Below, piece after piece: positions 28,628 to 55,635 of a stretch of DNA of 64,000 nt; position 1 is the stretch's first letter; each line of letters starts with the position of its first letter. The DNA is from Cordylochernes scorpioides (taxonomy: Eukaryota > Arthropoda > Arachnida > Pseudoscorpiones > Chernetidae), in the NCBI GenBank assembly GCA_030710605.1, contig CP092874.1, positions 20,344,611 through 20,408,610 on the forward strand. Direction: 5' to 3'. The notes under the pieces were generated by a model. That model did no database searches. It was not told where the DNA came from and was given only the letters and a program-made list of their open reading frames with translations. The position numbers and the translations under genes are program-made.

Positions 28628-29007
28628 GATCTATGTGTTTCAAAGAATGGGATAGATTCGGATAATCAGATGAACGAAGTCGTTCTATAGAGAGATGGAA
28701 AAGAATGCGTTGACCAGGTGTAGATATGCAACAATTCTCTATGCAACTTTAATTAAACTCCCTTCTCTCTTGATCCCAGATTGACAAATCGATATGTCAC
28801 ACGGATGATGACCAATTGATGATGATAAGGGAGAATTTTAGCGCGGAATTGGGAGCTTCTCAGATCTTTGTACCGTATCATGGCTGCGCGTGTTTTACTT
28901 AAATTCTTTTTCTTGCTATCATAGTAAACGGAGCCTTTTTTATGAAGTGATTCTTATAGGCACCTGTTATTTTCTTATTATTGCTAGAAAACATATTCAA
29001 TTGCGTA

Positions 29008-29223
29008 GCCTAGTGGACATGGCATCTGCCCGGTAAGCGGAACATTGTGGGTTCGATTCCCATCCCTGGACACTTTTATTTTTCCGTTCATCATTACTCT
29101 TCATAATTCACCCTTTCATACCTCACCCAAAAAGGTTAGAAATAGTCAATATTTCACCTTGAAATAAATTTTGATTTTTCATTGAAAAGAAACTCATGCG
29201 GTGTAACTTCAAGTGTTGTTTTA
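29008..29223 (+). mobile_element. tRNA-derived SINE, haplotype B only
   Basis: Flanked by CAATTGCGTA (28998-29007) and CAATTACGTA (29224-29233), a 10-bp duplication with one change. The head GCCTAGTGGACATGGC is box-A-like and GGTTCGATTCC is a perfect box B. The body and tail match the SINE at 6893. The other allele (about 4230) has the single site. No T run is present right after the head, as expected for a SINE and not a tRNA gene. Confidence 0.8.
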
Positions 29224-29372
29224 CAATTACGTATACAGTTCAATAGCTAAATTTAGAATATGTATTTCTATTTATAAAGTTATTTTATTTGAAAATATAC
29301 ATGAACACACACTTTAATATAGTTTATATTTTTAACAACAGATGGCGCGCTCTATAATGTATCTAATTTAAT

Positions 29373-29952
29373 TTGAACTCATAGACTTAAAGAAGGGGAA
29401 AGTATTTGATGTTGCCGGTCGTCTATTATTATTTTTTTTTTTTGAAGGGGACAGAGGTAATTTTGTTCACACTTGGTTATCTCGTGTGTCTTCAATAAAG
29501 GTCACTGTAATATCTTTCAGAGTTATTGTCTGAATACCGATATACATGCTAAAATGTACAACTTCCTTAAGTTTTGTCCATGAGTGTATATACACTTGGT
29601 TATCTCGTATGTCTTCAATAAAGGTTACTATAATATCTTTCAGAGTTATTGTCTGAATACCGATATACATGCTAAAATGTACAACTTCCTTAAGTTTTGT
29701 CCATGAGTGTATATACACTTGGTTATCTCGTATGTCTTCAATAAAGGTTACTGTAATATCTTTCAGAGTTATTGTCTGAATACCGATATACATGCTAAAA
29801 TGTACAACTTCCTTAAGTTTTGTCCATGAGTGTATATACACTTGGTTATCTCGTGTGTCTTCAATAAAGATCACTGTAATATCTTTCAGAGTTATTGTCT
29901 CAATCCCGATATACATGCTAAAAGGTACAACTTCCTTAAGTTTTGTCCATGA
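29373..29952. repeat. Tc1-type MITE with four 123-bp units, haplotype B
   Basis: The TCAATAAAGGTCACTG-type core recurs at about 29490, 29613, 29736 and 29859, with unit junctions GTATATACAC. The right end reads TTTTGTCCATGATAGTG. Haplotype A has one unit at 4380-4594. A 149-codon open frame on the minus strand is due to the period being a multiple of three. Confidence 0.88.
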
Positions 29953-30608
29953 TAGTGTATTACTGGAGAGATGTTAAACTGGAGAGATTTTATAGGCAAT
30001 AGGCTATAGGTAAAAATAGAATTATAAATATTTTACAAATTTATATTTAATCAAAAGATTAATTCAAAATCACAAGACCCAAAATTATTCAAATTACTTC
30101 AAATAGGCGCCTATCTACATATAGAACGTATGCAACTAAGTTATCAGAGATATTTAGTTATCAAAACATCCGCCAACAAAATTCCATTCCTATTTCTCAC
30201 ACCAAATTTGCTATTTACACAACAGATTGGTGCAGCCCTAGCAAATTTTTTAAGTGCCAAATTTTAGATTCCATTTTTTAAACTATTGATTTTTCTCGTT
30301 AAATTTATAATTTTTTTTTCTCTGTCGCCTCCTTACGCTTGCTTAGCTGGAAAATCCATTAGTCGACTAGGGAAAATTGTGTTTATGCAAATTTCTTCAT
30401 TTTTTTTTTCTATCGGTCTATATATTGCTTAAATGTGTGGACCCTTTTTTTTATAGGGAATATACGAAGTGTGAAATAAAATAATGAAAAATATTTTCCC
30501 ATATTACTACCATTTAAAAAATACAAATTTAATTTAATTTGATTTTTAAAAAATAGGTTTTAAAATATGTTAATAAAGAGGGGAAATATGCAACAGAGTT
30601 GTTGTTAA

Positions 30609-30832
30609 GAAAAAAGGCATCTCCTTATCGTGCAACTGAAAGTTGCTGATAGCTTGCGCCATCTATCGGAATAAATATCAACTATTATCGTTGATTTTTA
30701 ATTATTCCAGAATTGGCCAAATACCCATTCTTGATTAATCAAGAAAAGCTAACCCCGGACGCGTTATTTATTCCGATAGATGGCGTAAGCCATCAGCAAC
30801 TTTCAGTTGCACGATAAGGAGATGCCTTTTTC
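30609..30832. repeat. TTAA-flanked foldback MITE, haplotype B
   Basis: 224 bp, same length as the allele at 5228. TTAA at 30605-30608 and 30833-30836. Arms contain GCAACTGAAAGTTGCTGAT and its complement. Confidence 0.8.
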
Positions 30833-30981
30833 TTAATTTATGCCCCTTATCCCAGTACAATAACACATTTGTACTATTTTTTCACAGAGTTGTTGTTGTT
30901 GTGAAAAACAAAAAGAATTCTATACATGGGGTAAATATAAGTAAAAATTATCATGAAACATTTCCCTTATAAAGAACATAA

Positions 30982-31475
30982 AGAAAAGTAAACACAAGGT
31001 AAAAAATCCAAATAAATAAATTGTGTGTGACGTTTCGTTCGTTCAAAGAAACAAAGATACTAGATTGTGAGAAAAATTATTTTAAGAGACAATTTAAAGA
31101 AGCCTTTTACATTCAAAAGAAATGTGCTACAATTAACAGAATGGAAGAAAGAGGAAATATAAATGATATTTATAGATATACTTTTAATTATATCTTTAAA
31201 AAAGTGGGTTATTTCCACTTTTAATTCTAAGAATAATTATCTGTGTTTCTCAGAAAACTATCTTCTTCTTATCTGCTATCTTGTTTACACATTTGATAAC
31301 AGTAACTATTTAAACCATGCTGTGGTAAAATATTCATTATGGCCAATTATAGTCTCAACAACAACAACAACAAATATTCATTTAGTACTTTTGTCTGAAG
31401 ATGGTAACAACGCTATTACTGAAACGTCACACACTATTTATTTATTTGGATTTGGTCTTATTACCTTGTGTTTAT
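30982..31475 (+). pseudogene. PLE 3' fragment (GIY-YIG C-terminus) with inverted end, haplotype B
   Basis: The frame 31021-31224 reads FKETKILDCEKNYFKRQFKE then AFYIQKKC and NRMEERGN, the C-terminal part of a GIY-YIG type PLE endonuclease by pattern. The frame ends with KKVGYFHF. Outside it lie inverted copies of one terminus (ACACAAGGTA near 30995, TACCTTGTGT near 31463). The end hairpin near 31396 (CTGAAGATGGTAAC...ATTACTGAAAC) has lost pairing in this allele. Confidence 0.55.
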
Positions 31476-32054
31476 AATCTATAATCCAAATTGTGCCTTA
31501 TCATAAAGAAAAGTGAATATAATTGTTTAACTTGTGTTTACAATCGAATAAATTAATCCCTTGTATTTAATTACAAAATATAATTAAACTATCAAAGGAT
31601 AAGTTATTTTGAAGAGAGTCGACACGAGAAATCAAATTTCAAACAAAGAGTTGAAACATATGTTTATTATTTTTAATCCAATTGTATTATAGTTCTCTCC
31701 TGTAAAAGAACCTTCTTTAAGCCCGAAAGCTAGTAAATATATTCTCTTAATAGAAACTCATCCCTGGTTTGTTTAATTTTATTTTTAAAAGTAAATAAAA
31801 TGTATTTATATATAAAAATAAAATCAATTGGTTTGTACACTGTATAACAAAAAAATCGACGCACCAAGAAGGAGTTGTCAGATTAGGACAAAAATTGGTG
31901 TATGTAAAGAGCATGTATAGGGGGAAAAAACGATTAAAATTTCAGAACAATTAATTGTTTTATTTCAGAGTTTGATCGTCACAAATTGAGAATGTCAATA
32001 TGTCGTTTGGTTTTTGTTATAGAGTATATTTGTTTCGTATTTAGATTTTACCTT

Positions 32055-32620
32055 GGGGATCGGTGGATGAGTTGTCTGAACCGTTGGCTATCTGCCGCTA
32101 CGGCCCGGAATAGAATCCCGCACATTTGGTACTTTTTTTCTAATTAAAAAAATGCTCGTATATTCTTGAAAAAGTCCGATCTTACCAGTCAGTGTAAGTT
32201 ACCAAACGAGAATCAAGCACACTTATAAATCTAGAAACTTTTATTTTTCCGTTTATCATTACTCTTCACAATTCATCCTTTCATACTTCATCCCTAAACT
32301 TTTAACTTGCCCTCTGACTAATCAAATTGTATGTAGATACTTTGAAACATTACCAAATTCTCTTTGTGTATATACTCTATCTTATGAGAACTTTGTTAAG
32401 TTTAGAACTATTTGTACAATAATTTACAAAACACTACTAATCCATCGTGTAAATATTTAATCATATATATGTAAATAATACTAGCACAGCACAATAGTAC
32501 TTTGGACTTCGTGCTTTTGTAACAATAAATAAAATAAATAAAAATAAATAAATAAGGTTAGAAATAATCGTTATTTCTACTTGAAATAAATATCGATTTT
32601 TCATTCAAAAGAAACGTTCG
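32055..32620 (+). mobile_element. SINE with nested LINE tail, haplotype B
   Basis: Allele of 6893-7460. The head has GGAATAGAATCCC as box B remnant. The nested LINE tail occupies about 32301-32565 and ends AATAAATAAATAAGG. Both alleles share the nesting, so both insertions are old. Confidence 0.6.
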
Positions 32621-32714
32621 AGGTATAATTGTCAAATTTCGTTCTACAATCATAAGCCGCATTATATTGTATTATAAATACTTCTAAATGCAAAAGTCGA
32701 ACTTTTGTTCACAT

Positions 32715-33415
32715 GCGTAGCCATGTGGTGCACTTACAGTAAAAACAGTCGCCAACCCATCATGATTATCATGGCTTGTATCACGTGCACTAGAAAGAGG
32801 AATGATAATAATAATAATAATGTTTACCTTTCACGATAGGGTTAGGTCTGAAAAAAGTCATTATGATCGTTCCAATCTTGGAATACGCAAATTAGTTCCG
32901 TGACTATCTAATTTGCATATTTCGTCTTTTTTTTCCTCGTACGTTTCCACAATATTCGACCTATCAGGGAGTAATAATACGACGGAATAAGACGTTAGTT
33001 CGGGAAATAGTCATCGTTTTAGATTCAATCCCGGTATATATGCAAATTAGATGTCTAGTGATTTAATTTGCATATTATTAGGATGTAAAAAAAAAAAAAG
33101 ATGGATGATAGCAATATTATTAAGACATTCCTATCTTTATTATTATTATCTAGAGCAGATGAGAGAAGGTCGGACAGACATAAACAAAAGTGGATCAAGG
33201 CCAATTTTATCGAGGAGCCACCAGGAGAGGCCATAGAAAGACGGGACATCAGGGGACCATTATCTGCGAAGGTCACAGCGCGCGCACTGACCAGGAGTCA
33301 AGATTGTAAATATCGCTGTTTTCTTTCACTGTTATTATTTTGATGTTGTAAATAAGAGTATGTAAATATGTAATATTGTAAATATGTATATGTAATATTG
33401 TAAGTATGTAAATAC
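32715..33415. repeat. Shared repeat block: SINE fragment, octamer hairpins, GC-richer block, short minisatellite
   Basis: Alleles of 7541-8595 without the LINE insertion at 7657. The hairpin GCAAATTAG/CTAATTTGC is near 32888-32917. TATGCAAATTA/TAATTTGCATA is near 33039-33074. The minisatellite has only about two units. Confidence 0.6.
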
Positions 33416-33825
33416 AATAATCGAAAACCGATGGTTTATACCACTTGTCCAACGATCTCCATTAGCGTCTTTACTATCATTTAAAAAATGATTATGCAAA
33501 TTTTCCGGGATTCGAAAGGTCCGGTTAACAAGATAACTGGATTGATTTGTTGAAAGATACTAATAAAAACGTTTGTATCTATTTATAACATTGGGTCGCC
33601 TATTAAATGGGTATATAATATGTAAAGAACGATATATTTTTGCGGGTATTTTTCCTCCGACGCTTCAACAGTACTTGACACATTCGAATGAAACTTTCGG
33701 TTGATACTATAGAGTTGAGTCTGAAAGAAAAATTGCTGTTTTAGTGTCAACCCGCTAATATGTAAATTTAATTTGGTAACAGACTAATTTGCATATCAAA
33801 TTGGTTCCACACATACATTCATGGA

Positions 33826-34021
33826 CAGAACTTACGGAAATGGAACTTCATTAATATCTCCGGTAGTCTGTTTTTAATTTAATATTTTTTTAAGGAGACA
33901 GAGGCTGTTCACACTTGTTATCTCGTGTGTCTTCAATAAAGGTCACTGTAATATCTTTCAGAGTCATTGTCCCGATATACATGGTAAAAGCTGCAACTTC
34001 CTTAAGTTTTGTACATGAATG
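33826..34021. repeat. Tc1-type MITE, haplotype B
   Basis: TA-flanked allele of 8997-9202. The left end is CATTCATGGACAGAACTTAC. The right end is TTAAGTTTTGTACATGAATG with two changes. Confidence 0.78.
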
Positions 34022-34689
34022 TATGTTTAAAAAAGAAAACTGTTCAGATTTTCGAAATATCACGTTTTTAATTTTTAAAAACAAAGTGTATTTTCGAATT
34101 AAATACAAAATACCTCTCTCCATTGATCATATTTATTCAAAAACACAAAAATTTCCAAACATGAACATATCTCGAAACAAACCAACACATAACCATTATA
34201 AAAAAAAACACAAACTTTAAATAATTAAGAGGTACACACCTAATTTTAAATAAAAGATATGAAAAAAAAGAACACACCAGAGTTTAAAATTTCAACTAAT
34301 TATTTTTAATAGTTAAAAAGCCACCCTCATATAGTTAATTATTATTTTTATGGAGATGGAGACTATAAATAAATTTAAATGGAATTTGTGTGCAAGGGGA
34401 GGTCTATATAATAAAAAAGGGTAAATATTTTATTAACAAAAATAATCTATGAAATTAATTTAATGGGCAAAGTTATAAATGCCTAGACATTAAGATAATG
34501 AAAATTTTAATGATTTCTTTAAAACAACCAAATGAAACTTACGGTTAAAAAAATGTCATTTGGGTTAAAGAGAGATCCTTTGTTGTTTTGATATTTAAAT
34601 TTTACATTTCGAGGGAATGGTTAGAAAATTTTGGAGACAAATATTTATCTTATAATGAAGATTCCTTCATGCTTTTACATTTTGATATA
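34022..34689. other. AT-rich stretch shared by both alleles
   Basis: Matches 9203-9860. No gene or repeat recognised. Confidence 0.4.
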
Positions 34690-34918
34690 GTCTATAAGCC
34701 AGGAAAGTGAAGACTAGAACACGGCTGATTCCACACTAGCCTGTTCAGTGATTCGCTAACCATGACGTATGTACGGTGTGGCTATTGGACATGTGTCGGA
34801 CCTGGAGGCTGTTGTTGGATGCTGCGCTGCCTGGAGTATAGGAGCTCTATCTAATATTCCTTTCTTCATGTGGTGAATCTGTATAAGACCGCTGGTCTTA
34901 ATAAAGCTTTGTGTGTGT
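34690..34918 (+). mobile_element. LINE 3' end, (TG)n tail, haplotype B
   Basis: Allele of 9861-10097. The end reads AATAAAGCTTTGTGTGTG. Directly after it is the empty site (GAATATCTAGGGTTTA) of the LINE at 10124. Confidence 0.6.
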
Positions 34919-34957
34919 AATCTATAAGGAATATCTAGGGTTTAGTTTCTCATTTAT

Positions 34958-35068
34958 ATTATTTCTCGAATTTCGGGCTAATATGCCATTCAACACGGAG
35001 ATCCAAAAGTACTACTTTTGAATCTCCGTATTTGTTGAAAGGTATATTAGCCCGAAAGCCCGAGAAAT
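34958..35068. repeat. Small PLE-type foldback, haplotype B
   Basis: Allele of 10701-10812, with arms TTTCGGGCTAATATGCCATT and a right arm ending GCCCGAAAGC. Confidence 0.6.
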
Positions 35069-35273
35069 AAAGGAATAATGAAAAGAAACCAAACTCTATA
35101 TTTCTTTGAGTCAAAAGTCGATCCATTAAGTTTATATAAAAAGACATACCTGGATCTGTAAAGAAAAAAAATCTCAAAATATATATTTCGAGAGATTGTT
35201 TCCTCTTTATCAATTTATTGTACAAAATCAACACACATACAAAAATCTGTACAATAAATTGATAAAGACGGAG

Positions 35274-35385
35274 AGAGAAAATAAGAATAACCCGGGCCCC
35301 TGTAATACACGCTTGTTCGGCGGTACATATACTAAAATCGGAACGATACAGAGAAGATTTGCATGGCCCCTGCGCAAGGGCAAAA
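35274..35385 (+). pseudogene. Truncated U6 snRNA retro-pseudogene, haplotype B only
   Basis: From about 35308 the sequence follows U6 snRNA: CTTGTTCGGCGGTACATATA, ACTAAAAT, GAACGATACAGAGAAGATT, GCATGGCCCCTGCGCAAGG. It stops at the point where U6 would continue with its 3' stem, and ends in CAAAA. About 35 unrelated bases (35274-35307, containing CCCGGGCCCCTG) precede it. The 13-bp duplication GATAAAGACGGAG flanks the insert (35261-35273 and 35386-35398) and occurs once in haplotype A (about 10996). This is a retroposed U6 copy, probably moved by a LINE. With the 3' part missing it is not a functional gene. Confidence 0.92.
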
Positions 35386-35389
35386 GATA

Positions 35390-35525
35390 AAGACGGAGCA
35401 ATCTCTGAGTTTTTATAGGGGAAGAGTGACCTCTGGCGGTCGATTTAGCAGAGTATTTGGATCTATGAAATATAATTTTAAATAGAATAATATTTTAATA
35501 TAACATACATATTATATATTACATA
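35390..35525. repeat. Left arm of a large foldback
   Basis: AGTTTTTATAGGGGAAGAGT, GACCTCTGGCGGTCGATTTA and the following AT-rich part are found inverted at about 37262-37378, beyond the Tc1/mariner element. In haplotype A only the left arm exists (about 11000-11115). Confidence 0.65.
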
Positions 35526-35947
35526 CCAAATTAAAGAAGAAAATAAAACATTAATTATTTTTTCTTCTAAATACACAAAAATAAAACTCAGTTCTTTAAT
35601 TTTTACAATTCTTTTCTTTCTTCCTATATATATTACCTCAAAATACACAAAACAAAAGTATGCAAAACAATAATTTACATTATACCAATTCTGAATATAG
35701 AGCAATCCATAGTATATGTTCGCCCAATAAGCTTGGAAGACATCTGGTGGCTCACCTGAGGCACGCGACCTGCTGCGTACTTCACGGCAAAATACCTCGT
35801 AAAAGATGGAAGATTGGTCAATCGAAATATCGGATTAATAAATTATCTTATTACAATCCAAAATAAGCCTTATTTTTTAAAATTATACAAATTCTAAGGC
35901 ATATTACATATATTAATATCTTTAAATAAACACATCATATATATATA
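35526..35947. other. AT-rich stretch with a short GC-richer insert
   Basis: Around 35695-35865 haplotype B carries extra sequence (TGTTCGCCCAATAAGCTTGG ... CGACCTGCTGCGTACTTCAC) missing from haplotype A near 13740. Both sides show TATAC(C/A)AATTCT or ATACAAATTCTAAGG, suggesting an inserted retroposon fragment. No product assigned. Confidence 0.4.
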
Positions 35948-37252
35948 CAGGGTGTACCAGGTAAATTGGGAATTTCAACAATGGTATTTTAACTGAAATT
36001 TTTTGCAAGTAAAAATTAAAATATCCGAATGAAATTTGACACAGTAGTAGATAAAAGGAAATAGTTTTTATTTATTCAATGTAGTTTCCATTATTAGCTA
36101 CAACAGTCTCGAGGCGAGTGCGGAATGAAGCACAGGCCTTGGCGACGATGACCTTGTCCATTTGGGTCATCACCGTGTGAACTGCTTTCTTGACAGACTG
36201 GATGGTGGTATGAGGAGCTTTGTTGACATCTCTCTCAACAACGCCCCATACATAGTAGTCGAGGGGATTGCAATCTGGAGAATTAGGGGGCCAAATATCA
36301 GGACCCCAGTGACTAGAGACGTTAAGTGTCAGCCACGATTGTGTCTTTTTTGCCTTATGGGCTGGAGCTGAGTCCTGTTGGAAGACATACTTCCTTCCTG
36401 CGGCCACCATGTCCATCCAAGGCTTCACAACGGTCTCCAGAACATTGATATAGGTGTCAGCGTTCATCCTAAGGCCCTTCTCAAAGAAATGGGGAGGCAT
36501 GACATCACCTTCACTGCTGATAACGCCAAGAACCATTACGGAGGCAGGAAATTTCGTGTGCATCACGACAGGTATATCTGAGGGGTCTTTACAGATCCAG
36601 CGATCATTCCTGGGATTTACCTTTTGGTCCACGTCAAAGTTCTTTTCGTCAGAGAAGAACCTTAGCATGCCAAAAGAGTCGTGTTTCAGGTTGTTGAGGA
36701 GGGCAGCAGCCTTTCCTTTTCTGTTATTCTTCATATTCTCAGTCAGCAACTGACCTTTCCGAAGGGCATAAGACTTGAGACCAAGGTCCTCATGGATAGT
36801 TCTGACAATTGTCATAGAGCCAACGTCCATTTCCTTGGCTATGGCCCTCATGCTCTTCCCAGGGTTTCCATCAATCTTCTCCTTGACATTTTTGACAAAT
36901 TCTTCGCCTCTTACCCTGTCCGATCGACGCGAGTGCTTTTTCCTTGTAGCTATCCCCTCTTTGTTACTGTCGGCCTCATCAAACTGCTTCTTGACACGAT
37001 AAATAGTGGTTTTGGGCAACTTAAGAAAATCCACTATCTCTTTGGGGCTCCTTCCGGCGCGCAGAGCAACGATGATGGCAGCTCGATTTTCAAATTCTCG
37101 GTTACTCTTCATCACTACACTGCGCACACATGTACTGTTGCATTTTACATGAATATGGCTACGTAATGAAAAAAAAAAACAAGTTTTTAATCTCAAGTAG
37201 TTTTTGTTTTATGGACTGTCAAAGTTAGTCCCAATTTACCTGGTATACCCTG
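35948..37252 (-). mobile_element. Complete DD37D Tc1/mariner element, haplotype B only
   Basis: Flanked by TA on both sides. Terminal inverted repeats read CAGGGTGTACCAGGTAAATT and, from the other end, CAGGGTATACCAGGTAAATT (about 24 bp). 1305 bp long with one uninterrupted transposase frame on the minus strand. The haplotype A counterpart (about 13790) has no such element. Intact frame plus matched ends suggest recent mobility. Confidence 0.93.
36072..37196 (-). CDS. Tc1/mariner transposase, DD37D type, intact
   Basis: Cut-and-paste transposase acting in the nucleus on the ends of its own element and inserting at TA. The longest frame is 374 codons. Met29 (37112; MKSNREFENRAAI) is the likelier start and gives 346 residues, the usual size. 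Residues 36-70 form a helix-turn-helix (SPKEIVDFLKL, TTIYRVKKQF), with a second predicted DNA-binding helix set near 100-140 after a basic stretch (KKHSRRSDRVRG). The catalytic triad is D183 in FFSDEKNF, D275 in QQDSAPAH and D313 in SPDCNPLDYYVW. The second and third are separated by 37 residues, which defines DD37D (maT/ITmD37D-like) elements. All three acids are present and no stop interrupts the frame. It ends NNGNYIE, 124 bases inside the element. There is no host promoter signal. Potentially active. Confidence 0.92.
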   Translation of the reverse strand: MRLKTCFFFSLRSHIHVKCNSTCVRSVVMKSNREFENRAAIIVALRAGRSPKEIVDFLKLPKTTIYRVKKQFDEADSNKEGIATRKKHSRRSDRVRGEEFVKNVKEKIDGNPGKSMRAIAKEMDVGSMTIVRTIHEDLGLKSYALRKGQLLTENMKNNRKGKAAALLNNLKHDSFGMLRFFSDEKNFDVDQKVNPRNDRWICKDPSDIPVVMHTKFPASVMVLGVISSEGDVMPPHFFEKGLRMNADTYINVLETVVKPWMDMVAAGRKYVFQQDSAPAHKAKKTQSWLTLNVSSHWGPDIWPPNSPDCNPLDYYVWGVVERDVNKAPHTTIQSVKKAVHTVMTQMDKVIVAKACASFRTRLETVVANNGNYIE

Positions 37253-37261
37253 TATATGTTA

Positions 37262-37378
37262 TATAAAGGTATTATTTAAAATGTTATATTAAAATATTAT
37301 TTTATTTAAAAATATATTTCATAGATACAAATATTCTGTTAAATCGACCGCCAGAGGTCACGCTTTGCATATAAAAAC
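37262..37378. repeat. Right arm of the large foldback
   Basis: The inverse of 35390-35525, containing AAATCGACCGCCAGAGGTCA. It is missing from haplotype A, where only an ACACATC(AT)n junction is left, so a deletion between AT-rich repeats is likely. Confidence 0.6.
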
Positions 37379-37394
37379 TAAACTATTGTAAACA

Positions 37395-37395
<1 letters not shown>

Positions 37396-37449
<54 letters not shown>
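37396..37449. repeat. (AT)n microsatellite
   Basis: About 27 AT dinucleotides following AACACATC. Haplotype A has only CATCATATATAA at the matching position (about 13790). Confidence 0.9.
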
Positions 37450-37451
<2 letters not shown>

Positions 37452-38756: not shown

Positions 38757-38866
38757 TATATAATTGATAAAATTGTGTGGTTTGGATTATATTCTAGAGA
38801 AGGGGAAGATATGTATATATATATGTGTGTGTGCATTTAAACAAATATATTAATTTATTTAAATCA

Positions 38867-39412: not shown

Positions 39413-39863
39413 CACTCATGGACAAAACCAAAGGAAGTGTGAAGTCTTTGATGTCACCAGCCCGTCTGTTTTTTGAAGGAGATAGAAGAAATTTTGTTCA
39501 CCCTTGTTTATCTCGTGAGTCTTCAATAAAGGTCATTGTAATATCTTTCAGAGTTATTGTCTGAATCCTTATATTTATTCTAAAATGTACAACTTCCTTA
39601 AGTTTTGTCTATAAGTGTATATACACTTGGTTATCTCGTGTATCTTCAATAAAGGTCACTGTAATATCTTTCAAAATTATTGTCTAAATCCTGATATTTA
39701 TTCTAAAATGTACAACTTCCTTAAGTTTTGTCTATGAGTGTATATACACTTGGTTATCTCGTGTGTCTTCAATAAAGGTCACTGTAATATCTTTCAGAGT
39801 TATTGTCTGAATCCCGATATACATGCTAAAAGGTACAACTTCCTTAAGTTTTGTCCATGAGTG
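39413..39863. repeat. Tc1-type MITE with three 123-bp units, haplotype B
   Basis: TA-flanked, with ends CACTCATGGACAAAACC and TTTTGTCCATGAGTG. Units are near 39522, 39645 and 39768. The allele in haplotype A (15788-17323) has 12 units, so this locus differs by about 1.1 kb between the two copies. Confidence 0.9.
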
Positions 39864-40748
39864 TAGATGTTCTAAAACCTTTCTGAAAATGCTGTAATCC
39901 CAATAGAGAGAATGAATATTTCTTTTTAACTGAAAACCATACACATAGCGCACTCTGTATTTAAAAGATGGAACATTAAATATTATTGGTTTTAAATAAT
40001 GGACGATATTTAAGCATCATTAAATAGGAGTAGAAAAAGAGAATTGGTGGTAAGGCTTGGCTCATCACTGGTGAACCTTCCCACACATTTCCTCACTTTT
40101 ATATACCAGATCTCTACCGCTACTATATGTTTATTCTACCTATATAATTTGTACTTATACTTAATTTTCATATTCAATTCTCAATAAATTCGTCTATCAT
40201 GAAAAAATCGATTAGAATTAATGTTTCCATCCTCTCTATTTTTTCCCTTTCACGAGAAACGAATATTCGATCTCTTCAAAATTTCTGAAAGCGAAAACCT
40301 AATTCCCAGTTTGAAAACCCAGTAAAGCATTACACGATTCTTAACCAACCATTGGATAACTAAACTTGTCACGTGACTAGACATTAGCTCGACAGATGAG
40401 TCGACGATCAGCTAGGCCTTTTCCTTCCAAACGAATTTTTTAGAAATCTTCTGCGTGTCTGATATTAATTTTTTTTTATAAGAAAATTTATGATTTAAAT
40501 ATTAAGGTTTTTTTCCATTGTAAAATATCTTTTTGGTTATTTTCAATACCCATTTTAAAATATTGACATAGAAATTTTACATATATTTGATAAATCTCAA
40601 GATGTATTGATTATATACACAAATTACCAATAAGAATAATATATTGTCAAACATGATATCTATGAAACTAAAATCTATATATGCAAATATTATACATATT
40701 ACATATATAAAGAGATAATGTACAAATACAAGGCTAATTGACCAAACG
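39864..40748. other. AT-rich stretch, allele of 17324-18214
   Basis: Contains the decayed MITE relic (about 40045) and copy 1 of the dispersed direct repeat (about 40405). No gene. Confidence 0.45.
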
Positions 40749-43840: not shown

Positions 43841-43949
43841 AAAAATGAAAGTATTTTCAGTGCAACATCAACAAAAAAGAAATTCTTATATTAACGGTCG
43901 TTTATATAACACTTCGATATATGTAACCATTGAGATAAGGTACCACATA

Positions 43950-44050
43950 TTCAACGTAGCTGATTGGCTGCTATAGATCATGTGACAGTAGAGAACCAAT
44001 CAGCGGATGGATAAACACAATACCCTATATGTATATACCTATATAAACCT
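43950..44050 (+). promoter_or_regulatory. CCAAT/TATA-like promoter cluster, haplotype B
   Basis: Allele of 20364-20470, with TGATTGGCTGC, ACCAATCAGCGG and CCTATATAAACC all conserved. No downstream exon recognised. Confidence 0.35.
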
Positions 44051-44145
44051 GTTAAGATATATACAATTGTGACTTACGGGTATTCAAAAATGAACTAATT
44101 GAAACCAGTAATTGAGTAATTGCAAAATAGCTATGATATATATAT

Positions 44146-44391
44146 TGTCGCGGAGATAAATAAAGCAAGGGCAAGTTTGGGAATAATTAATTTATTATAA
44201 GGGGTATTTATAGGGAGAGAGAGAGAAAGCACAACTTACCCCAAGTTAAAGATAATCCTAATGAACGGCGTCAGCCACCGTCCCGTTTTCCTTATTTACA
44301 GATCAGCTTCCGAGAACCCCTCACACCTGTGGTCCCTCCCAGGGTCCAGGGATGATTGACAGGTGTCCCATCTGGATGGAGCTTCTTGACA
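44146..44391 (+). repeat. Solo-LTR-like element, haplotype B
   Basis: Allele of 20559-20802. Ends TGTCGCGGAGATAAATAAAG and CTTCTTGACA. Confidence 0.55.
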
Positions 44392-44965
44392 ATATATAGC
44401 GCTTAAGGTAAATTATTTATATAATATTTATCACAAGGATTTTATAATCCCCCCGAAATCGCCGATTTATTTCAAATCAAGCCGTTATTTTGATATTGAT
44501 ATAAGGATAAACAGAGCTTTCTAATTAAGTTTTTCCAGCATTTGGGTTTAGATATCCTTTAATTTCTCCGTCGCATATACGTCGGGCTATATAGTCTAGT
44601 TGCAAATTATTTCTGTGCGCCTTTTAGATACCAAACGATTTTTTAAAATCATAAGTTTTTATGCAAATTGATCAAATTTTTATGTATATATATATATTGT
44701 ATTTACCATATTTGTATATTTACCTAAATAATATTTATTCTATCTACAAGATTGTGTGTTAGATATCGTGTGTAGATGTATAAAAGGAATACAGGCAGCC
44801 AAATAATGGGTGAATTATGCAAATAATATACACTCTGAGACAAAATAATAAACCATCGTCTGCAATAAATTTATTTTAATGGAGTAAACCACCGGCGAGT
44901 CTACCTCGGGCCTTATGTGCAATTAAATGTGAATAAAATAAAACTTTAAAATATAAAGAGAGAGC
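44392..44965. other. AT-rich stretch, empty site of a Helitron
   Basis: Matches 20803-21091 and 21758-22045. The Helitron of haplotype A (21092-21757) is missing at about 44690. Confidence 0.5.
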
Positions 44966-44977
44966 GTAATAGAGAAA

Positions 44978-45226
44978 GTAAGTAATAGAGGAAAGCTGGG
45001 CGTCCTGCATGAAGCAGAGAGGAGCCAAAACGGCGGCCACGAGGGCCGCCGTGAGACCTAGCACTGAGCGGGCCCTGTCCGAAAATATCCACTGTAACCT
45101 AGCTAACTGTCAACATTCGGACCAAGGCCCCTTTTTTGTCCCTCTCTGGATCCCCCGGGTGTCCAGTGGCAAGCTGATGTCACTTTGAGACGACTAGAAA
45201 AGACGTCATACTTTATTACTTACATA
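44978..45226. mobile_element. GC-rich insertion, haplotype B only, unclassified
   Basis: Replaces the 2.3-kb block of haplotype A. It starts near GTAAGTAATAGAGG and ends CTTTATTACTTAC, so the ends form a short inverted repeat. The interior is GC-rich (AACGGCGGCCACGAGGGCCG). The 62-codon frame reading MLGLTAALVAAVLAPLCFMQ is more likely chance than a secreted peptide. Confidence 0.45.
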
Positions 45227-45276
45227 TTACATTGTTTAAATTACGATATATATATTTAATAACCCTAAAAGTATAT

Positions 45277-45363
45277 TCATCGATAGCTCAGTTGGCAGAG
45301 CGGAGGGCTGTAGATGTTTCAACTGTGATCCTTAGGCCGCTGGTTCAAATCCGGCTCGAGGGA
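45277..45363 (+). tRNA. tRNA-Tyr (GTA) with 14-nt intron, haplotype B, altered acceptor stem
   Basis: Allele of 24442-24529. The anticodon loop CTGTAGA, intron (14 nt after CTGTAG), T arm GCTGG/CCGGC and T run are retained. The acceptor 5' strand is TCATCGA opposite TCGAGGG, which gives an A-G mismatch at pair 3 and a weak first pair. It may be a decaying allele or pseudogene. Confidence 0.8.
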
Positions 45364-45445
45364 CTTTTTTTAAAATTATAGTTCAAAATATATTTATTTT
45401 TTTTTGCTAGGCTTCATACTTCATCAAATTAAATTCAATAAAATA

Positions 45446-45628
45446 CAGTAGAACTACCTCCCTGTAAAGGACAACACCTAGTTACAGAGCCAAAGTGTCC
45501 TTTAGGGAGAGATATCCTTTTATGGAGAGTTACTAAATAGTAAAAATGGAAATTTTGCAAATGAAAACTGTCCTTTGTAGAGAGAAGTCCTCTAGCGCGA
45601 GTGTCCTCTCATTGAGTATGTTCTACTC
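45446..45628 (+). repeat. pogo-like MITE, haplotype B
   Basis: Allele of 24593-24774. Ends CAGTAGAACTACC and GTTCTACTC. Confidence 0.7.
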
Positions 45629-45650
45629 TATAAAATATTTGATGGATATA

Positions 45651-46004
45651 TCTATATATATAAAAATCAATGTTTGTATGTTTGTTTGTTTGTATGTCCG
45701 GTATACAAATTCGCAGTAGTTCACTAATTCAAACCAAAATTTCCATACATAGGTAAAAAAATACGGGGAAGACGATAGGCTATTTTAAAAAATATATAAA
45801 TCAATTATTAAAACTATATATTCAAATTATTCTACTTAGCTCACGAACAGCGCCCTCTATCAATTAGATTAAATTATGCTGATGCAAACAAATAGATAAT
45901 GCTAATAACAAACAATTATAAAAAAAATCTTATCTAAATATATATCACTCGGGTAGATATGCACACGGGTCAATCCCGAGGCGAAGCCCGGGTCACTCGT
46001 CTAG
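45651..46004 (+). mobile_element. Short non-autonomous Helitron, haplotype B only
   Basis: Starts TCTATATATATAAAAATCAA after A and ends GGTCACTCGTCTAG before T. The hairpin near the 3' end has CCCGAGGCGAAGCCCGGG with one mismatch. 354 bp, the same family as 25632 (opposite strand). Haplotype A has an uninterrupted ATATAT at about 24795, without a target duplication, as expected for a Helitron. Confidence 0.87.
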
Positions 46005-46838
46005 TATTATATATGAAAGAGTTGCAATCTTTTTTAAAACAAAACTAAATGAATAACACAGGTTTCAGCAGTGTAGCACAGATTTCTGACTACATAGGAA
46101 ATAAATACATACACAACACATTATATTTTAGTGGATATTTCAATATTCTGAATATACCCCCCCCCCCCCCCCCTATTCTTTTTAAATATCCTTGCCGGGA
46201 GGGAAGTTTGGATTGATATCTTATGCCAGAAATACCACTTTACATATTTGTATATCAGCATACTTTAAATGTGAAATATTAAAATATATCGGAGTAAAAA
46301 AAGGTTATTCAGAGAGAGAGAGAGAGTGTATTTTCATAAAGAATTATTAAATAAATTGATATATATTATTTTAAAAATATATTTTAAATAAAAACGCCTA
46401 CAATTTTGAAAAATAAAAAATAAAATGGCGGGAAAAATATTGTTGGTCAGAGACGTGTGACCAAATTTAAGTCAGTGTGACCAAATAAATCCTAGAAATG
46501 TAATTTACGAGCCGTTTGCACCATAAAAATATGCTCACAGAAGGTAGAAGCTTTTCACATCTGGTCCTCCTGTAATATCGTAAATTTTGACCCCAGACGC
46601 CAAATAATACGCTACCTCTCTTATAATTTATGATGATAGCTCATCATTTTTGGAGCATCCAATTTCCCTTTTGGTCGTTCTTTCTATTGTTATCTTCTTA
46701 TTCGTCTGCAAATAAATACGACTTAATCTTCTGTTTGAAATATAAAACCTATTTATTTCATTGTTTTTATCTAAAATGAATCCCCGATACCAAATAGACT
46801 AAATAAAAACTCATTTCTCTCTTGTAAATATTAGTATA
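46005..46838. other. Shared AT-rich stretch with a 17-C run
   Basis: Allele of 24800-25631. Seventeen C at 46157-46173 replace a TTCCCC tract in haplotype A. A GAGAGAGAGAGAGAG run at about 46313 is also longer here. No gene. Confidence 0.5.
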
Positions 46839-47195
46839 CTAGACGGGTGACCCAGGCTTCGCCCCGGGATTGACCCATGTGCATATCTACCCGAGTGATA
46901 TATATTTAGATAAATATTTTTTTTAGAATTGTTTGTTATTAGCATTATCTATTTGTTTGAATCAGCATAATTTAATCGTTGATAGAGGGCGCTGTTCGTG
47001 AGCTAAGTGAATAATATGAATATATAGTTTTAATAATTGATTTATATATTTTTTAAAATAGCCTATCGTTTTTCCCCGTATTATTTTACCTATGTATGGA
47101 AATTTTGGTTTGAATTAGTGAACTACTGCGAATTTGTATACCGGACATACATACAAACAAGCAAACATAAAAACATTGATTTTTATATATATAGA
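46839..47195 (-). mobile_element. Short non-autonomous Helitron, haplotype B copy
   Basis: Allele of 25632-25988, with the minus-strand start TCTATATATATAAAAATCAA and end GGGTCACCCGTCTAG. Confidence 0.8.
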
Positions 47196-47925
47196 TTTCT
47201 CAAAGTTGAAAATGACGTATAGCCTTAATTCTTTAAAACTCGGTTTATATATTTATATTTATTTTTTATCTATCTGTGTAGAATAGAGAAAGGGAGAGTT
47301 TTTTTAAAACTATATCTTATACTCTTTCTTTCAATAATAAAAATTATCTTTGCATATTTTAGATACAAAAATAAATGAAATTATTTTGAATATCATCTAT
47401 TTTTAATGACACGAGCTTTCGGAAGCATCTCTATATCAATTTTAACGCAGTCCTATATATGCAAATAAAATCTAAAAATATATTTGATTGTTAGTTCTTC
47501 ATACCTTTCCACAATACTTGACCTATCTAGATAAAATTGTGGCACGATATAGAGAGAGCTCTGGAAAGAGTCATTGCATCGAGCTTACGATATGTAAATT
47601 AGTTCGATAATAGACGAATATGGATATTTTATTTGTAAAGCGCAAATAAAAGCCTGAGCTGTTTCTGTTGCTTAATTGACGGTAACATTCCTGGAGAGCG
47701 AGATAGATTGAAATTACTTTACTACAACGTCCATATATACTATTATTGTGCCTTCTATATATATATTTATATATTATGTTAAAATAAATATGTAAATAAG
47801 ATTATATAATGATATGTAAAAATAAAATTTGCATATCCTGACCTCTCACATGAGTATTTTAGTTGGCAGAGCGCCATCTAGTGGAACACATTTATTTATT
47901 TTTATTTTTTTACATAATGATATGT
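47196..47925. other. AT-rich stretch shared with 25989-26720
   Basis: Includes the dispersed repeat with CAATACTTGACCTATCT (about 47512) and ATATGTAAATTAGTTCGATA (about 47590), and AGAGCGCCATCTAGTGGAAC near 47869. No gene. Confidence 0.45.
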
Positions 47926-47962
47926 TTTTAAAATAGAGCAATCCATATTTATTTCATTAGAT

Positions 47963-48213
47963 AATAAAAAGGCATATATTGGATTTAATAGAAGATTTAT
48001 TTTGCCAATATTTCGGCTGGTTGAACGCCAACCTTTATCGAGGCATTACATTTTTGTATACACAAACTCAGCGCCGCATAGTGTTATAATATCCATTGTG
48101 TATTGCTGAGTTTGTGTATACAAAAATGTAATGCCTCGATAAAGGTTGGCGTTCAGCCAGCCGAAATATTGGCAAAATAAATATTTTATTAAATCCAATA
48201 TATGCCTTTTTAT
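47963..48213. repeat. Foldback of PLE-end sequence within the insertion
   Basis: Two arms of about 107 bases (GGCATATATTGGATTTAATA ... ACACAAACTCAGC and complement) around a 31-base loop. The arms contain CAATATTTCGGCTGG and GAACGCCAACCTTTATCGAG. A relative stands alone at 55636-56011. It is inferred to be an inverted pair of PLE termini. Confidence 0.65.
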
Positions 48214-48215
48214 AT

Positions 48216-49518
48216 ACTATAAAATAAAGTGCCTGGAGAAAATGATTTTTTATTAATCGACTACACGAGCTTTCGGGCAGTCACGCCCTTCAACTGGTAA
48301 TGATACATGATGGCAATAGGCCTTAAATAGGATTCCGTTTTTAAAGAGATATTTTTACATATGAGAAAAATAATATAGGACGGCTAAAAAACAATTTAGT
48401 TAAAAAATATTTGCAAATCTAAGCTATTATATAATATATTTATGTAACTATGCTAATCCTGTAATGCCGGTTGACAAATAAATGGTAGGTTTGTAATTGG
48501 CTAAAACATGTGACTATATAATGAAGAGAGACTAGTATTAGGATATCGACTGTTCAACCCGCCATCAGCGGCCATATTGGAACTATACTGGGGGAGGGGG
48601 GGGGGGTTAACGGTTATTCAAGTTACTACATATATCCTGATATTGTGCAGGTAAATCTATATGTCGGTTAATGCTATTTTTTGATATGGATACTATGGCT
48701 TCTATGATCAGTCTTTGGTATTTATTGGAGATGTTATTGTATAATGTGGTGGGTGAAGTTAAATCGAAAGAGTGGCCTGTGTCAAGAATATGGTTGTAGA
48801 TGAGGGACCTGTTGTCTTTGTTATTGACGCACCTGCCATGCTCAGTCATCCTGATGGCCACGGACCTACCAGTCTCACCTATATAGGTTGCACTACAATC
48901 GTTGCATGAGACTGAGTAGACCGAGCCACCCGATGACTGAACACTGGCAGGTCTCGGCAATCGGGTAATTGGATGTCTAAGAATGGTGGCCAGGCTTCTA
49001 TTGTTTGTATAGTAGGTGTTAATGCCATGAGGCTTAAGAAGGTGAGATATTGCAGCGGATTGTGTTGAGTACGGTAAGATGCAGGTATTTCTATGGGGTA
49101 AATTGGGTTTCATATGGGCCGGGTTGTATTGATATTTATATATGAACTGGTGTGGATATTGGGAGAGGGCAAGTTGTTTCTTAATGTTAGCGAACTCTAT
49201 TGATCTGAAAATGGGCAGGGAGCAATGTGTAACCAATCTCTTGGTAAGCGTTCTAACTGTATTAATTTTATGGGATAAGGGACAGAAAGACTTGAAATTG
49301 GTGTAGAAAGTTGGGTTATTGATTTTATGGTATACTGTTGTGTGGTAGTGTGATGGGGTACGGATGATCAGTATGTCCAGGAAAGGTATTACATTATTGG
49401 CTTCTGATTCAAAACTGAAGGAAATGTCTGGGTGGAAGGAGTTTAGAACAGATAAGATACTGTTCTCCTGTCCGGTTTCACATATACAGAGGATATCATC
49501 AATATATCTCCTCCATAT
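48216..49518 (-). repeat. Left arm of the 1303-bp PLE palindrome
   Basis: Every position p checked pairs with 99101-p in the right arm, for instance the stop codon edges 48607 and 50494 and the outer edges 48216 and 50885. There is no net indel, so the arms are equal in length. Their proteins are identical. Confidence 0.92.
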
Positions 49519-49582
49519 GTGAATGCCCGGTGTGAATTGCTGTTGGATCCAGGTGTCAAGTGTAGACATGACTATCTCGGCC
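48607..49582 (-). pseudogene. 5'-truncated PLE reverse transcriptase/GIY-YIG endonuclease, left copy
   Basis: Reverse transcriptase-endonuclease of a Penelope-like retroelement, carboxyl half only. It begins in the palm with VMSTLDTWIQQQFTPG, followed by WRRYIDDILCI, where YIDD is the catalytic motif C of the reverse transcriptase. Thumb-like sequence and a linker follow, then a GIY-YIG endonuclease: VYSVSCNDC, TYIGETGRS, an R.TEHG motif and a conserved E in EAIVSISK. It ends with SNLNNR. Motifs A and B and the amino half are missing, so it cannot work alone. It extends 64 bp further upstream than the right copy, through the spacer. The open frame that continues to 49737 beyond 49582 only reads antisense through the opposite arm and is not PLE sequence. 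Confidence 0.88.
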
Positions 49583-50494
49583 ATATGGAGGAGATATATT
49601 GATGATATCCTCTGTATATGTGAAACCGGACAGGAGAACAGTATCTTATCTGTTCTAAACTCCTTCCACCCAGACATTTCCTTCAGTTTTGAATCAGAAG
49701 CCAATAATGTAATACCTTTCCTGGACATACTGATCATCCGTACCCCATCACACTACCACACAACAGTATACCATAAAATCAATAACCCAACTTTCTACAC
49801 CAATTTCAAGTCTTTCTGTCCCTTATCCCATAAAATTAATACAGTTAGAACGCTTACCAAGAGATTGGTTACACATTGCTCCCTGCCCATTTTCAGATCA
49901 ATAGAGTTCGCTAACATTAAGAAACAACTTGCCCTCTCCCAATATCCACACCAGTTCATATATAAATATCAATACAACCCGGCCCATATGAAACCCAATT
50001 TACCCCATAGAAATACCTGCATCTTACCGTACTCAACACAATCCGCTGCAATATCTCACCTTCTTAAGCCTCATGGCATTAACACCTACTATACAAACAA
50101 TAGAAGCCTGGCCACCATTCTTAGACATCCAATTACCCGATTGCCGAGACCTGCCAGTGTTCAGTCATCGGGTGGCTCGGTCTACTCAGTCTCATGCAAC
50201 GATTGTAGTGCAACCTATATAGGTGAGACTGGTAGGTCCGTGGCCATCAGGATGACTGAGCATGGCAGGTGCGTCAATAACAAAGACAACAGGTCCCTCA
50301 TCTACAACCATATTCTTGACACAGGCCACTCTTTCGATTTAACTTCACCCACCACATTATACAATAACATCTCCAATAAATACCAAAGACTGATCATAGA
50401 AGCCATAGTATCCATATCAAAAAATAGCATTAACCGACATATAGATTTACCTGCACAATATCAGGATATATGTAGTAACTTGAATAACCGTTAA
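49583..50494 (+). pseudogene. 5'-truncated PLE reverse transcriptase/GIY-YIG endonuclease, right copy
   Basis: Identical in protein to the left copy from WRRYIDD to the end. In a frame opened at 49523 (323 codons), YIDD lies at residues 25-28, the GIY-like VYS at 220-222, YIG at 232-234, R238, R243 and H247 follow, and the conserved E is at 293. Residues before about 21 come from the spacer in antisense and are not PLE. The frame is undisturbed although the copy lacks the amino half, in line with a very recent insertion. There is no cysteine-rich or CCHH motif between the two domains that I can point to. A cellular function is not expected. Confidence 0.88.
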
Positions 50495-50885
50495 CCCCCC
50501 CCCCTCCCCCAGTATAGTTCCAATATGGCCGCTGATGGCGGGTTGAACAGTCGATATCCTAATACTAGTCTCTCTTCATTATATAGTCACATGTTTTAGC
50601 CAATTACTAACCTACCATTTATTTGTCAACCGGCATTACAGGATTAGCATAGTTACATAAATATATTATATAATAGCTTAGATTTGCAAATATTTTTAAC
50701 TAAATTGTTTTTTAGCCGTCCTATATTATTTTTCTCATATGTAAAAATATCTCTTTAAAAACGGAATCCTATTTAAGGCCTATTGCCATCATGTATCATT
50801 ACCAGTTGAAGGGCGTGACTGCCCGAAAGCTCGTGTAGTCGATTAATAAAAAATCATTTTCTCCAGGCACTTTATTTTATAGTAT
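49583..50885 (+). repeat. Right arm of the 1303-bp PLE palindrome
   Basis: Inverse of 48216-49518 across a 64-bp spacer (49519-49582). The spacer is the continuation of the left copy (it encodes part of TLDTWIQQQ on the minus strand). After 50885 the two arms diverge at once. Confidence 0.92.
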
Positions 50886-50950
50886 TTATATTCCAAGGAG
50901 AAAGTGTTCTATGTTTAAATATGCCTTTTTATTATCTAATAATGATATGT

Positions 50951-52100
50951 GTGTGTTTTTTCATTAATAAATAAATATATATATATATAAAATAACTGAT
51001 GAATAATCAAATATACGGTCTCCATTGATGCACACAATAATTAAAATACACATATAAAATAAAATCGACACACACCAAAAAGTAGTTGTCAGATTTATAT
51101 GAAAATACGTATACAAAGACGTTTCGAACAAACATGAAAATGATGTAATTTAGAAGCCGATTTATGCAAATCAAGAGCTCCAGCGCAATTTGAACTGCGC
51201 ATCCAGCACAGGTATTCTAGACTCAAAATTCGGAGCGATACAAGCTGATTCTCAAAATTTCCGTTTAATAATTTTTGCAGTAAGTCTATTTCTACTGTAT
51301 CAATGCCTCTCCGAAAGATTCGTGCTCATTACTGTTGGATCGTTTTTGCAGACAACTCTCAGATTTATAAAATTAATTTATTAAACTTTAAACATTTTTA
51401 GATATAGAGAGAGAAACGAGTTGATTACCTCGTATTTAAGGCAGCAAAAAAATTATCTTATTTACAACATCGTTCTAACCAAATTAAACTTATGCAAAAA
51501 ACAGATATAAGAAAAATAAACAAATCAATGGTAGAGGGTAAGTTCCTATTTTTTATAAGCTTTCATACTCAAAGAATAATCATTTTCTTGATTCAATTAC
51601 GAACATATGTTGACTATTTGATCCGACAGTTGGAGACAGTTTAGCAAGAAATCTCTTTATTTTATTGAGGTTTACAAATTTGATATTTTTCGCCGTTACC
51701 AAGATTACAATATTTTTTAGTGAATTAATACATTTGATCACCCTTGGGCTCAATACTCATACTATTGGACCCGTCTGATCTCTGCGGATCACCACCCTGA
51801 TCCTCCTCTACATCCCGGCTCTCCTGGCCTCACCCGGCGATGATCCCCTGGCCACCCATCCCCTTCCAACAGTACAATGTATATATTGCTTTGCTTCCGT
51901 TTTTGGGGCTCAAAAATCATCCATTCTGGTTAGCAACCCCGTAAATAGAGATATTTCCAGCATTAATACATATATTAAGGCAAATAGAGGTTCGGATTTC
52001 AATTAAAAACTTTCGACAGCATCTCTTTATCAGTTTAAACTGATATGTAGAGAAGTTAACCAACATTCCTGTGTGGAGCGTACAATATATATATCGACAA
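50951..52100. other. Shared sequence, allele of 27410-28527, no gene
   Basis: GC-rich block at about 51770-51870 (TCCTCCTCTACATCCCGGCT) as in haplotype A. No coding frame. Confidence 0.45.
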
Positions 52101-52213
52101 CTACCCCAATTTACTTATTTTAAAAGATGTTAGAGAATTTAGAACAATAACTTATAATTAGGTTCGGTTCGGTTCCAAAATCACTTTATTAGGTACCGCT
52201 CAACAAGAGCAAC

Positions 52214-52548
52214 GAATTTTGGCAACGAATTCCAGGACTCGAGACACCTACTGCTGGAATGTCCACTCTTCTTCACCGCTAGACAACAGACAATAAATAA
52301 TGTTGTAGATCTATATCAATTTGTAAATAGCAGAGAGAATTATCATAAGTTTAATTATTTTTGTAAATATATTCATGATTTTCTTTCAAACCTGAAAGGT
52401 TCAGGTTCCTAATATATATATATATATTCTCTTTTTATTTCGATTACTTTTTTTTTGTAAAAATTTTATAACTGTTTCTGTTTAAAAAATGTAAATCGAC
52501 GTAATTATCCCTAGCCGGGATATCGCGTTTGTGTGTTGAAATAAATAA
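52214..52548 (+). mobile_element. LINE 3' end insertion, haplotype B only
   Basis: Flanked by AAGAGCAAC (52205-52213 and 52549-52557). Contig 3 has it once (about 53907). The frame reads DSRHLLLECPLFFTARQQT then YFCKYIHDFLSNLKGSGS and stop. HLLLECPLF is the typical cysteine motif near the end of LINE ORF2. The 3' end has CCCTAGCCGGGATATCGCG, then GAAATAAATAAA. No reverse transcriptase part is left. Confidence 0.85.
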
Positions 52549-52786
52549 AAGAGCAACCTAGTTCATGATATTTACAAAAATGAATAATATATGATGGTTA
52601 TTCACATATTAAACAATTTTTAACGCAGGATTTAATCCCAGTTCATGACTGTCGGGAATCGAGGTTGTTACCCACTTGTCCACCGACTTCTTATTGCGTA
52701 TAATTAGTGCACAATAATGTATATATATAAGATAATATAAATTAATATAAAAAACAATATAAGTTTAATTTATTTTTGTAATAAAA

Positions 52787-52985
52787 GCTTTCGAAAACGT
52801 CCATTTATCTGTTTAAAATAGTGCGATAGATTCCCGCCTGGGTGAAAGCAATTCAGTGTAAGAAAGGAAGAGTATCGGAATGTGCTGCCGTTATTGGTAA
52901 CACCTGTCGGAGTTCCTTTCTTTTCCAGCCAAACGATTCTATCTCACTTCGTCTGTATCCTTTAACACCTCGCTGAAGAGGTGAT
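52787..52985. repeat. PLE-style end motif and following unclassified block
   Basis: AAAAGCTTTCGAAAACGTCC at about 52787 reads on the minus strand CTGATAAATGGACGTTTTCGAAAGC or close to it, the PLE-end pattern. The following block (TGAAAGCAATTCAGTGTAAG ...) is GC-richer and repeated at 54150-54345. Confidence 0.45.
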
Positions 52986-53320
52986 GTCGCTTCTTCTTTC
53001 ATCCTCTTTTTTTAGAATAATATCACATTATTCTTTGTTCTTCAACAAATATTATAGAAACCAACAAACGAAATCTTATGAAAAATAAGAATTTTAAAAG
53101 AATTTTACGACTTTATAAGAATGTTATATGTTGTGGCTTTTTAAATTATGAATTTTCTATGTTGGTTATTACTTTCTAAACTTTCTACAAAATCTGGATC
53201 TCTAATGTTTTCATGCGTTGAATAATGTAAATAACTTATGTAAATAAACTTTTCTACTTGTTTGGTGCAAGTATCCCTTGCGGGATATAGCGCTTTGGAA
53301 ATAAAATAATAATAATAATA
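52986..53320 (+). mobile_element. LINE 3' end, haplotype B
   Basis: A partial frame contains FKRILRLYKNVICCGFL, similar in pattern to the tail of the LINE at 52214. The 3' end GTGCAAGTATCCCTTGCGGG, then ATATAGCGC and an (AAT)n tail, matches the related end CCCTAGCCGGGATATCGCG. The allele is at 54350-54690. Confidence 0.5.
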
Positions 53321-53369
53321 ATATTAATATAGTTCATGTAAGCAATAGTTATCCAGAAATTATTTTTGA

Positions 53370-53640
53370 AAAATAAAAATCAGGTTAAAAAGTTTCTTTT
53401 AATTTTAAATTTTTAAGCTTTCGAGTAAATATACTGTTCTTCAACGGGCTAATACTCTATGTACAATCTCTAAATAATATTTATACAGAATAATTGAAAA
53501 CCTTTGTTATTGGCATGTGTGGGCGTGCATCAGACTGTTTACAGCTAAAGTAATAGATATTCGATAAAGAACAATATACAGTATTTTGCTCGAAAGCTTG
53601 AAAATTTAAAATTAAAAGAAACTTTTTACCTGATATTTAT
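53370..53640. repeat. PLE-type foldback, haplotype B
   Basis: Arms of about 75 bases: AAAAATCAGGTTAAAAAGTT ... AAGCTTTCGAGTAAATATAC, and the complement ending TTTTTACCTGATATTTATTT. The motif GTTCTTCAACGGG lies in the left arm. The allele is at 54735-55012. Confidence 0.6.
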
Positions 53641-53697
53641 TTTTACTTTTCAAATTATGTAGTTTGATATTTTTATACTCTTTTGTCTTATTGATTT

Positions 53698-55624: not shown

Positions 55625-55635
55625 ATATTTAAATA

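Follow-up and report, generated by a model that had tools for sequence, protein, structure and literature searches.

Interleaved contigs of two haplotypes as the probable source of a repeated block in a Cordylochernes scorpioides scaffold

Does the long direct repeat found in this scaffold exist in the chromosome of the pseudoscorpion Cordylochernes scorpioides, or was it produced during assembly? We analyzed the window, that is, the whole stretch of 64,000 nucleotides at C12:20344611-20408610, together with 100 kb on each side, and searched the genome (2,619,359,433 bases in 24 records). Three 100-N gaps divide the window into contigs A (132-28527), B (28628-53697) and C (from 53798 on). The preliminary description had proposed that the middle contig is the other haplotype placed in series. 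Our results support this proposal: A plus C together span the whole of B, and on B the two adjoin to the base. In the chromosome itself the stretch is most probably not duplicated; the sequence would instead be counted twice through a known type of assembly fault. The layout, with the haplotypes named according to the explanation that we favor, is as follows.

32-131: 100-N gap.
132-3849, plus strand: first part of contig A; its allelic counterpart is the final 4.6 kb of contig 1 (C12:20325329-20329901), which lies outside the window.
3850-28527, plus strand: remainder of contig A, haplotype Y, allelic to B 28628-52100 (17-piece chain, 92.7%).
28528-28627: 100-N gap between haplotypes (A to B).
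28628-53697, plus strand: contig B, haplotype X, a haplotig of 25,070 bp that lies wholly within A plus C.
53698-53797: 100-N gap between haplotypes (B to C).
53798-55065, plus strand: start of contig C, haplotype Y, continuing A 28527 directly and allelic to B 52101-53697.
55066-64000, plus strand: remainder of contig C in the window; the allelic counterpart is contig 6, which starts outside the window and runs from C12:20416584 onward.

The comparison of A with B yielded a colinear plus-strand chain that links 3850-28527 to 28628-52100 and comprises 15,494 aligned columns; the identity of its single pieces ranges from 84.7 to 98.4%. A second plus-strand chain, of 2 pieces and 1,293 columns at 92.9%, links B 52101-53697 to C 53798-55065. 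The remainder of both spans is sequence found on one side only. Both repeats had been described beforehand, the first with its order and orientation kept, and their borders proved correct to the base. The accompanying statement that the duplicated blocks stop at the 100-N gaps also stood, in the sense that both chains start and end at a gap-adjoining base on one of their two sides (28628 and 28527 for the first chain, 53798 and 53697 for the second).

A and C showed only scattered matches to each other, the best chain having 447 columns. In the coordinates of B, the final base of A corresponds to 52100 and the first base of C to 52101, so that the two are neighbors there. When the last 301 bases of A were joined to the first 503 bases of C and the resulting probe was aligned to B, one piece spanned the join (query 1-414, 95%), and its 5 gap positions all lay away from the join. 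The remainder of the probe aligned farther along B, beyond a B-only stretch. Because A and C adjoin to the base on B, they would be consecutive pieces of one haplotype, and B would be the other. There is no reason for a real duplication to yield this base-exact adjacency. In each genome search the 40 best candidates were scored. Among these, a probe from 18690-20240 had two full-length matches genome-wide, itself and, at a distance of 22 kb, the B copy (94%); a probe from 29000-31000, beyond its 123-bp repeat part, had its sole other long match in A (95%), plus short matches.

The window and its flanks, 264 kb in all, hold 9 contigs, numbered 0 to 8 (A being 3, B 4 and C 5; the first and last are truncated at the limits of the region), and 8 gaps, each of 100 N. 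Every one of the 9 contigs paired with another across 100-N gaps, and two (contigs 2 and 8) did so in inverted orientation. The comparison retained chains scoring over 1,200, and the partner chains scored as follows.

Same strand: contigs 0/1, 20,347; 3/4, 23,343; 5/6, 15,086; 1/3, 5,040; 4/5, 1,882.
Inverted: contigs 7/8, 20,378; 1/2, 7,991.

The four strongest partner chains (15,086-23,343) compare with at most 3,097 for non-partner contigs, and a reverse-strand chain inside the 0/1 pair reaches 3,414; these non-partner chains and the reverse-strand 0/1 chain are derived from repeats. The 4/5 overlap has a score within the non-partner range and rests on its placement at contig ends. Within the window, 62,262 of the 63,700 non-N bases lie inside partner chains, with 45,062 homologous columns; most of the unpaired bases are those at 55066-56472, which were omitted from that tally, yet were aligned to contig 6 by the joined-end probes. 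Over the 264 kb, 216,798 of 263,200 bases lie inside pairings, with 131,873 homologous columns.

Contig ends also met on the opposite haplotype. Bases 1-3718 of contig 3 align on bases 49671-54243 of contig 1, the latter being its final base; the end of contig 1 corresponds to base 3718 of contig 3 and the start of contig 4 to base 3719. Likewise, the end of contig 4 corresponds to base 1268 of contig 5, and base 1 of contig 6 to base 1269, which is window position 55066. Nine probes made from joined contig ends were aligned to the other haplotype, and 5 of them aligned through the join (1 and 4 on 3; 3 and 5 on 4; 4 and 6 on 5; 0 and reverse-complemented 2 on 1; reverse-complemented 2 and 3 on 1). 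The last of these did so with a 97-base stretch without counterpart right before the join, in contig 2. The other 4 of the 9, around contigs 7 and 8 (5 and 7; 6 and 7; 6 and reverse-complemented 8; 5 and reverse-complemented 8), gave no alignment through the join. From these alignments, the order of haplotype Y would be 0, 2 (inverted), 3, 5, and that of haplotype X would be 1, 4, 6. Contigs 7 and 8 pair together, but these probes joined them to neither haplotype. The ends of contigs 5 and 6 fall at one homologous position, as do those of 7 and 8, and the initial 26 kb of contig 7 had no partner inside the 264 kb.

The SNP divergence over seven comparisons was 4.8% (3,175 of 65,872 ungapped sites), with a range of 3.1-6.0% per comparison, and the A and B copies differed at 4.59% of 16,697 sites. 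A divergence of 4.8% is high for alleles. One-sided jumps of at least 50 bp numbered 53, split 25 to 28 between the two sides; some of them, with large overlaps, reflect tandem repeats and not insertions. Four B-side sites were inspected by eye, and target-site duplications were seen at 3 of the 4.

29008-29224, plus strand: B-only SINE-like insertion with a tRNA-like part; target-site duplication of about 9 bp.
35274-35398, plus strand: B-only insertion (including one target-site copy) with a U6 snRNA copy; 13-bp target-site duplication.
36075-37208, minus strand: transposase ORF with DDE_3 and HTH_23 matches, inside the B stretch 35693-37401, which has no counterpart in A.
47926-50938, no strand assigned: B-only 3-kb palindromic insertion; target-site duplication of about 12 bp.

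The Rfam U6 match (35309-35414) extends past the insertion into the flank. The transposase is probably of the Tc1/mariner type, and inspection by eye of its region, 35693-37401, found no clear target-site duplication. The 3-kb insertion contains a 2.7-kb palindrome (48211-50888) with arms that are 98.4% identical and an ORF in both orientations, which gave a weak GIY-YIG match below the cut-off and no match up to E 0.01 in a PDB search; we take this palindrome to be possibly a Penelope-like element. Filled-site/empty-site differences of this kind would fit alleles or any two long-separated copies. Because they come with target-site duplications, read error is excluded as their source.

At other loci, the informative probes had 2, 3 and 1 copies among the best 40 candidates scored for each. 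The part of the C15:80.47 Mb probe that is not common repeat occurs in two copies, 17 kb apart, at 91% identity. The C12:18.28 Mb probe has three full-length copies (100, 95 and 94%), which start within 219 kb at C12:18280207, 18369302 and 18498960. This triple may represent a third haplotype, a pooled sample, or a real duplication plus an allele. The C15:80.65 Mb probe (around C15:80654040) has one full-length copy. A further probe, L006 1-1500 (C1:131677499-131678998), is a satellite that carries no word on copy number and was omitted from the probe tally; among the matches listed, it has many copies at 93-98% identity, mostly on C1, C8 and C22, and also on C21, C12, C11 and C7.

Repeat copies away from the probed loci formed 21 pairs no more than 200 kb apart, compared with about 0.43 expected under uniform placement, which is too easy a null since repeats cluster; one of the pairs is just 1.5 kb apart, and three come from a single triple. 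The count used four match lists with 38, 38, 37 and 39 main off-locus rows, drawn from the best 40 candidates each, and left out the own locus and full copies (2, 2, 3 and 1 rows), the shorter secondary rows (33, 6, 5 and 29) and the lists of the tandem-repeat (29000-31000) and satellite probes. The pairs lie on 11 chromosomes; 11 are same-strand and 10 opposite, an even split as expected from misoriented small contigs. Duplication elsewhere is common, not uniform. Given one three-copy and one single-copy probe, the description "two haplotypes everywhere" is too simple.

These observations point to a haplotypic (heterotype) false duplication, in which A and C would belong to haplotype Y and B, from haplotype X, would have been placed between them; we put the probability of this explanation at about 0.93. 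The sample would carry two strongly diverged haplotypes at the locus, the assembler would have built each of them as its own series of contigs, about 15-55 kb long, and the scaffolder would have put the contigs of both into one linear scaffold with 100-N gaps between them, so that the second haplotype was kept. We favor false duplication because B is contained in A plus C with borders at gaps, and A and C adjoin to the base on B; because 5 of 9 joins align through on the other haplotype and 9 of 9 contigs have a partner; because the divergence is of one order over all seven comparisons, with jumps on both sides; and because the window probe has two full-length matches, while the 21 off-locus pairs are spread over 11 chromosomes. 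Against it stand the three-copy and single-copy probes elsewhere, the 4 joins that did not align through, the partnerless first 26 kb of contig 7 and the divergence of 4.8%. In addition, false duplication leaves unaccounted for that same-haplotype contigs adjoin without gap or overlap.

A real tandem (segmental) duplication whose borders coincide with contig breaks, since assemblers stop at repeats, would also give two adjacent copies in the same orientation, as A and B are at 93% identity, and long repeats do break assemblies. However, separate events would be needed for A/B, B/C, C/6, 1/3 and 0/1, with borders on contig ends. A true tandem duplication would place the copy junction inside a contig, with borders independent of contig ends, and new sequence past the second copy, whereas the A/B and B/C borders are the contig ends, at scaffolding gaps, and C begins, in B coordinates, where A stops. 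Furthermore, on B no base separates A from C, contigs 2 and 8 are inverted relative to their neighboring partners, and elsewhere some pairs of repeat copies are on the same strand and others on opposite strands. We rejected this explanation because of the contig borders and the abutment, and assign it a negligible probability. The same weight falls to a homotype false duplication, one sequence copied via read errors or a gap-filling error, which would likewise stop at gaps. Target-site duplications at 3 of the 4 inspected B-side insertions, including the 13 bp around the U6 copy, speak against it, and copying through read errors is ruled out, since errors make no target-site duplications.

The divergence itself and the many one-sided insertions raise another explanation: the scaffolder would likewise have interleaved two versions, but these would be homeologs in a lineage that is hybrid, allopolyploid or long asexual, or else haplotypes of pooled individuals. 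The three full-length copies at C12:18.28-18.50 Mb agree with it, but the window probe has two copies and no more among the best 40 candidates, one locus has a single copy, and such divergence may be attained in very diverse sexual species. We consider this explanation quite improbable and infer that the relation between the two versions is allelic and not homeologous. It seems to us unlikely that the genome contains haplotypes with an unusual degree of separation (some 5% SNPs and, in addition, heavy insertion differences), and locally more than two of them, as a mark of a hybrid, polyploid or long-asexual lineage; if it were true, the assembly fault would be a visible trace of such haplotypes.

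For false duplication, the consequences reach beyond the middle contig. About 25 kb had been thought to be counted twice, with the fault lying in B; the repeat is confirmed and B fits as a haplotig, but the extent is larger, since contigs just outside the window duplicate A 132-3849 and C 55066-64000 as well and the whole neighborhood is affected. Almost the entire window, and the greater part of the 264 kb around it, falls in regions present twice in the assembly. The segment 55100-64000 had been suggested as a single-copy control for read depth; such a comparison would mislead because contig 6 duplicates this segment. If the duplication is equally widespread, which the pairs on 11 chromosomes suggest, the genome is smaller than the 2.62 Gb of the assembly, and gene counts and results on copy number, duplication age and synteny would be unreliable until the second haplotype is removed.

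The locus can be compared with published descriptions, here taken from excerpts of two papers. According to Ko et al. 2022 (PMC9516828), the hallmarks of false duplication are half depth, discordant pairs, 1-copy k-mers and gaps that separate the two members of a duplicated pair on one scaffold. Such gaps are present here at 28528-28627 and 53698-53797, and the partner chains lie between contigs. The purge_dups paper (PMC7203741) describes haplotigs and heterozygous overlaps, and the program uses read depth as well as similarity; with respect to similarity, B is contained in A plus C, and the end of contig 1 overlaps the start of A. The locus resembles false heterotype duplication (PMC9516828, PMC7203741) in having two diverged copies on one scaffold with assembly gaps between them, and the contained haplotig B and the overlapping ends of contigs 1 and A and of B and C are sequence-level counterparts of the two classes in PMC7203741. 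Unlike the totals of Ko et al. 2022 (PMC9516828), where false duplication makes up to 15.9% of an assembly, it is denser in this stretch, with 216,798 of 263,200 bases paired. Unlike the false duplications described in the excerpts of either paper (PMC9516828, PMC7203741), several same-haplotype contigs here adjoin to the base.

Several minor features accompany the locus. Contig B starts with GATC, as none of the other contig starts in the 264 kb does, and contig 5 ends with GATC; we considered a Hi-C restriction site and took both occurrences as chance. A 123-bp tandem repeat of varying copy number lies in five places (15878-17324, 29469-29960, 39500-39868, 56473-57543 and 61400-62263) and has matches on many chromosomes. 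Pfam scans of 18 different ORFs returned transposase domains, the GIY-YIG match below the cut-off and matches in the 123-bp array. Read as protein, this array matched 15 unrelated Pfam families, four of them above the curated score, with no single stretch passing; we rejected these as real domains and took them as chance matches from repeats. A Mos1-type mariner transposase with one in-frame stop lies at 59690-60685. Finally, both haplotypes carry a tRNA-Tyr-like gene, at 24441-24530 in A and 45277-45364 in B, which in both copies looks like it has a GTA anticodon and an intron; ARAGORN called the A copy Leu(tag), and the acceptor stem begins differently in the B copy.
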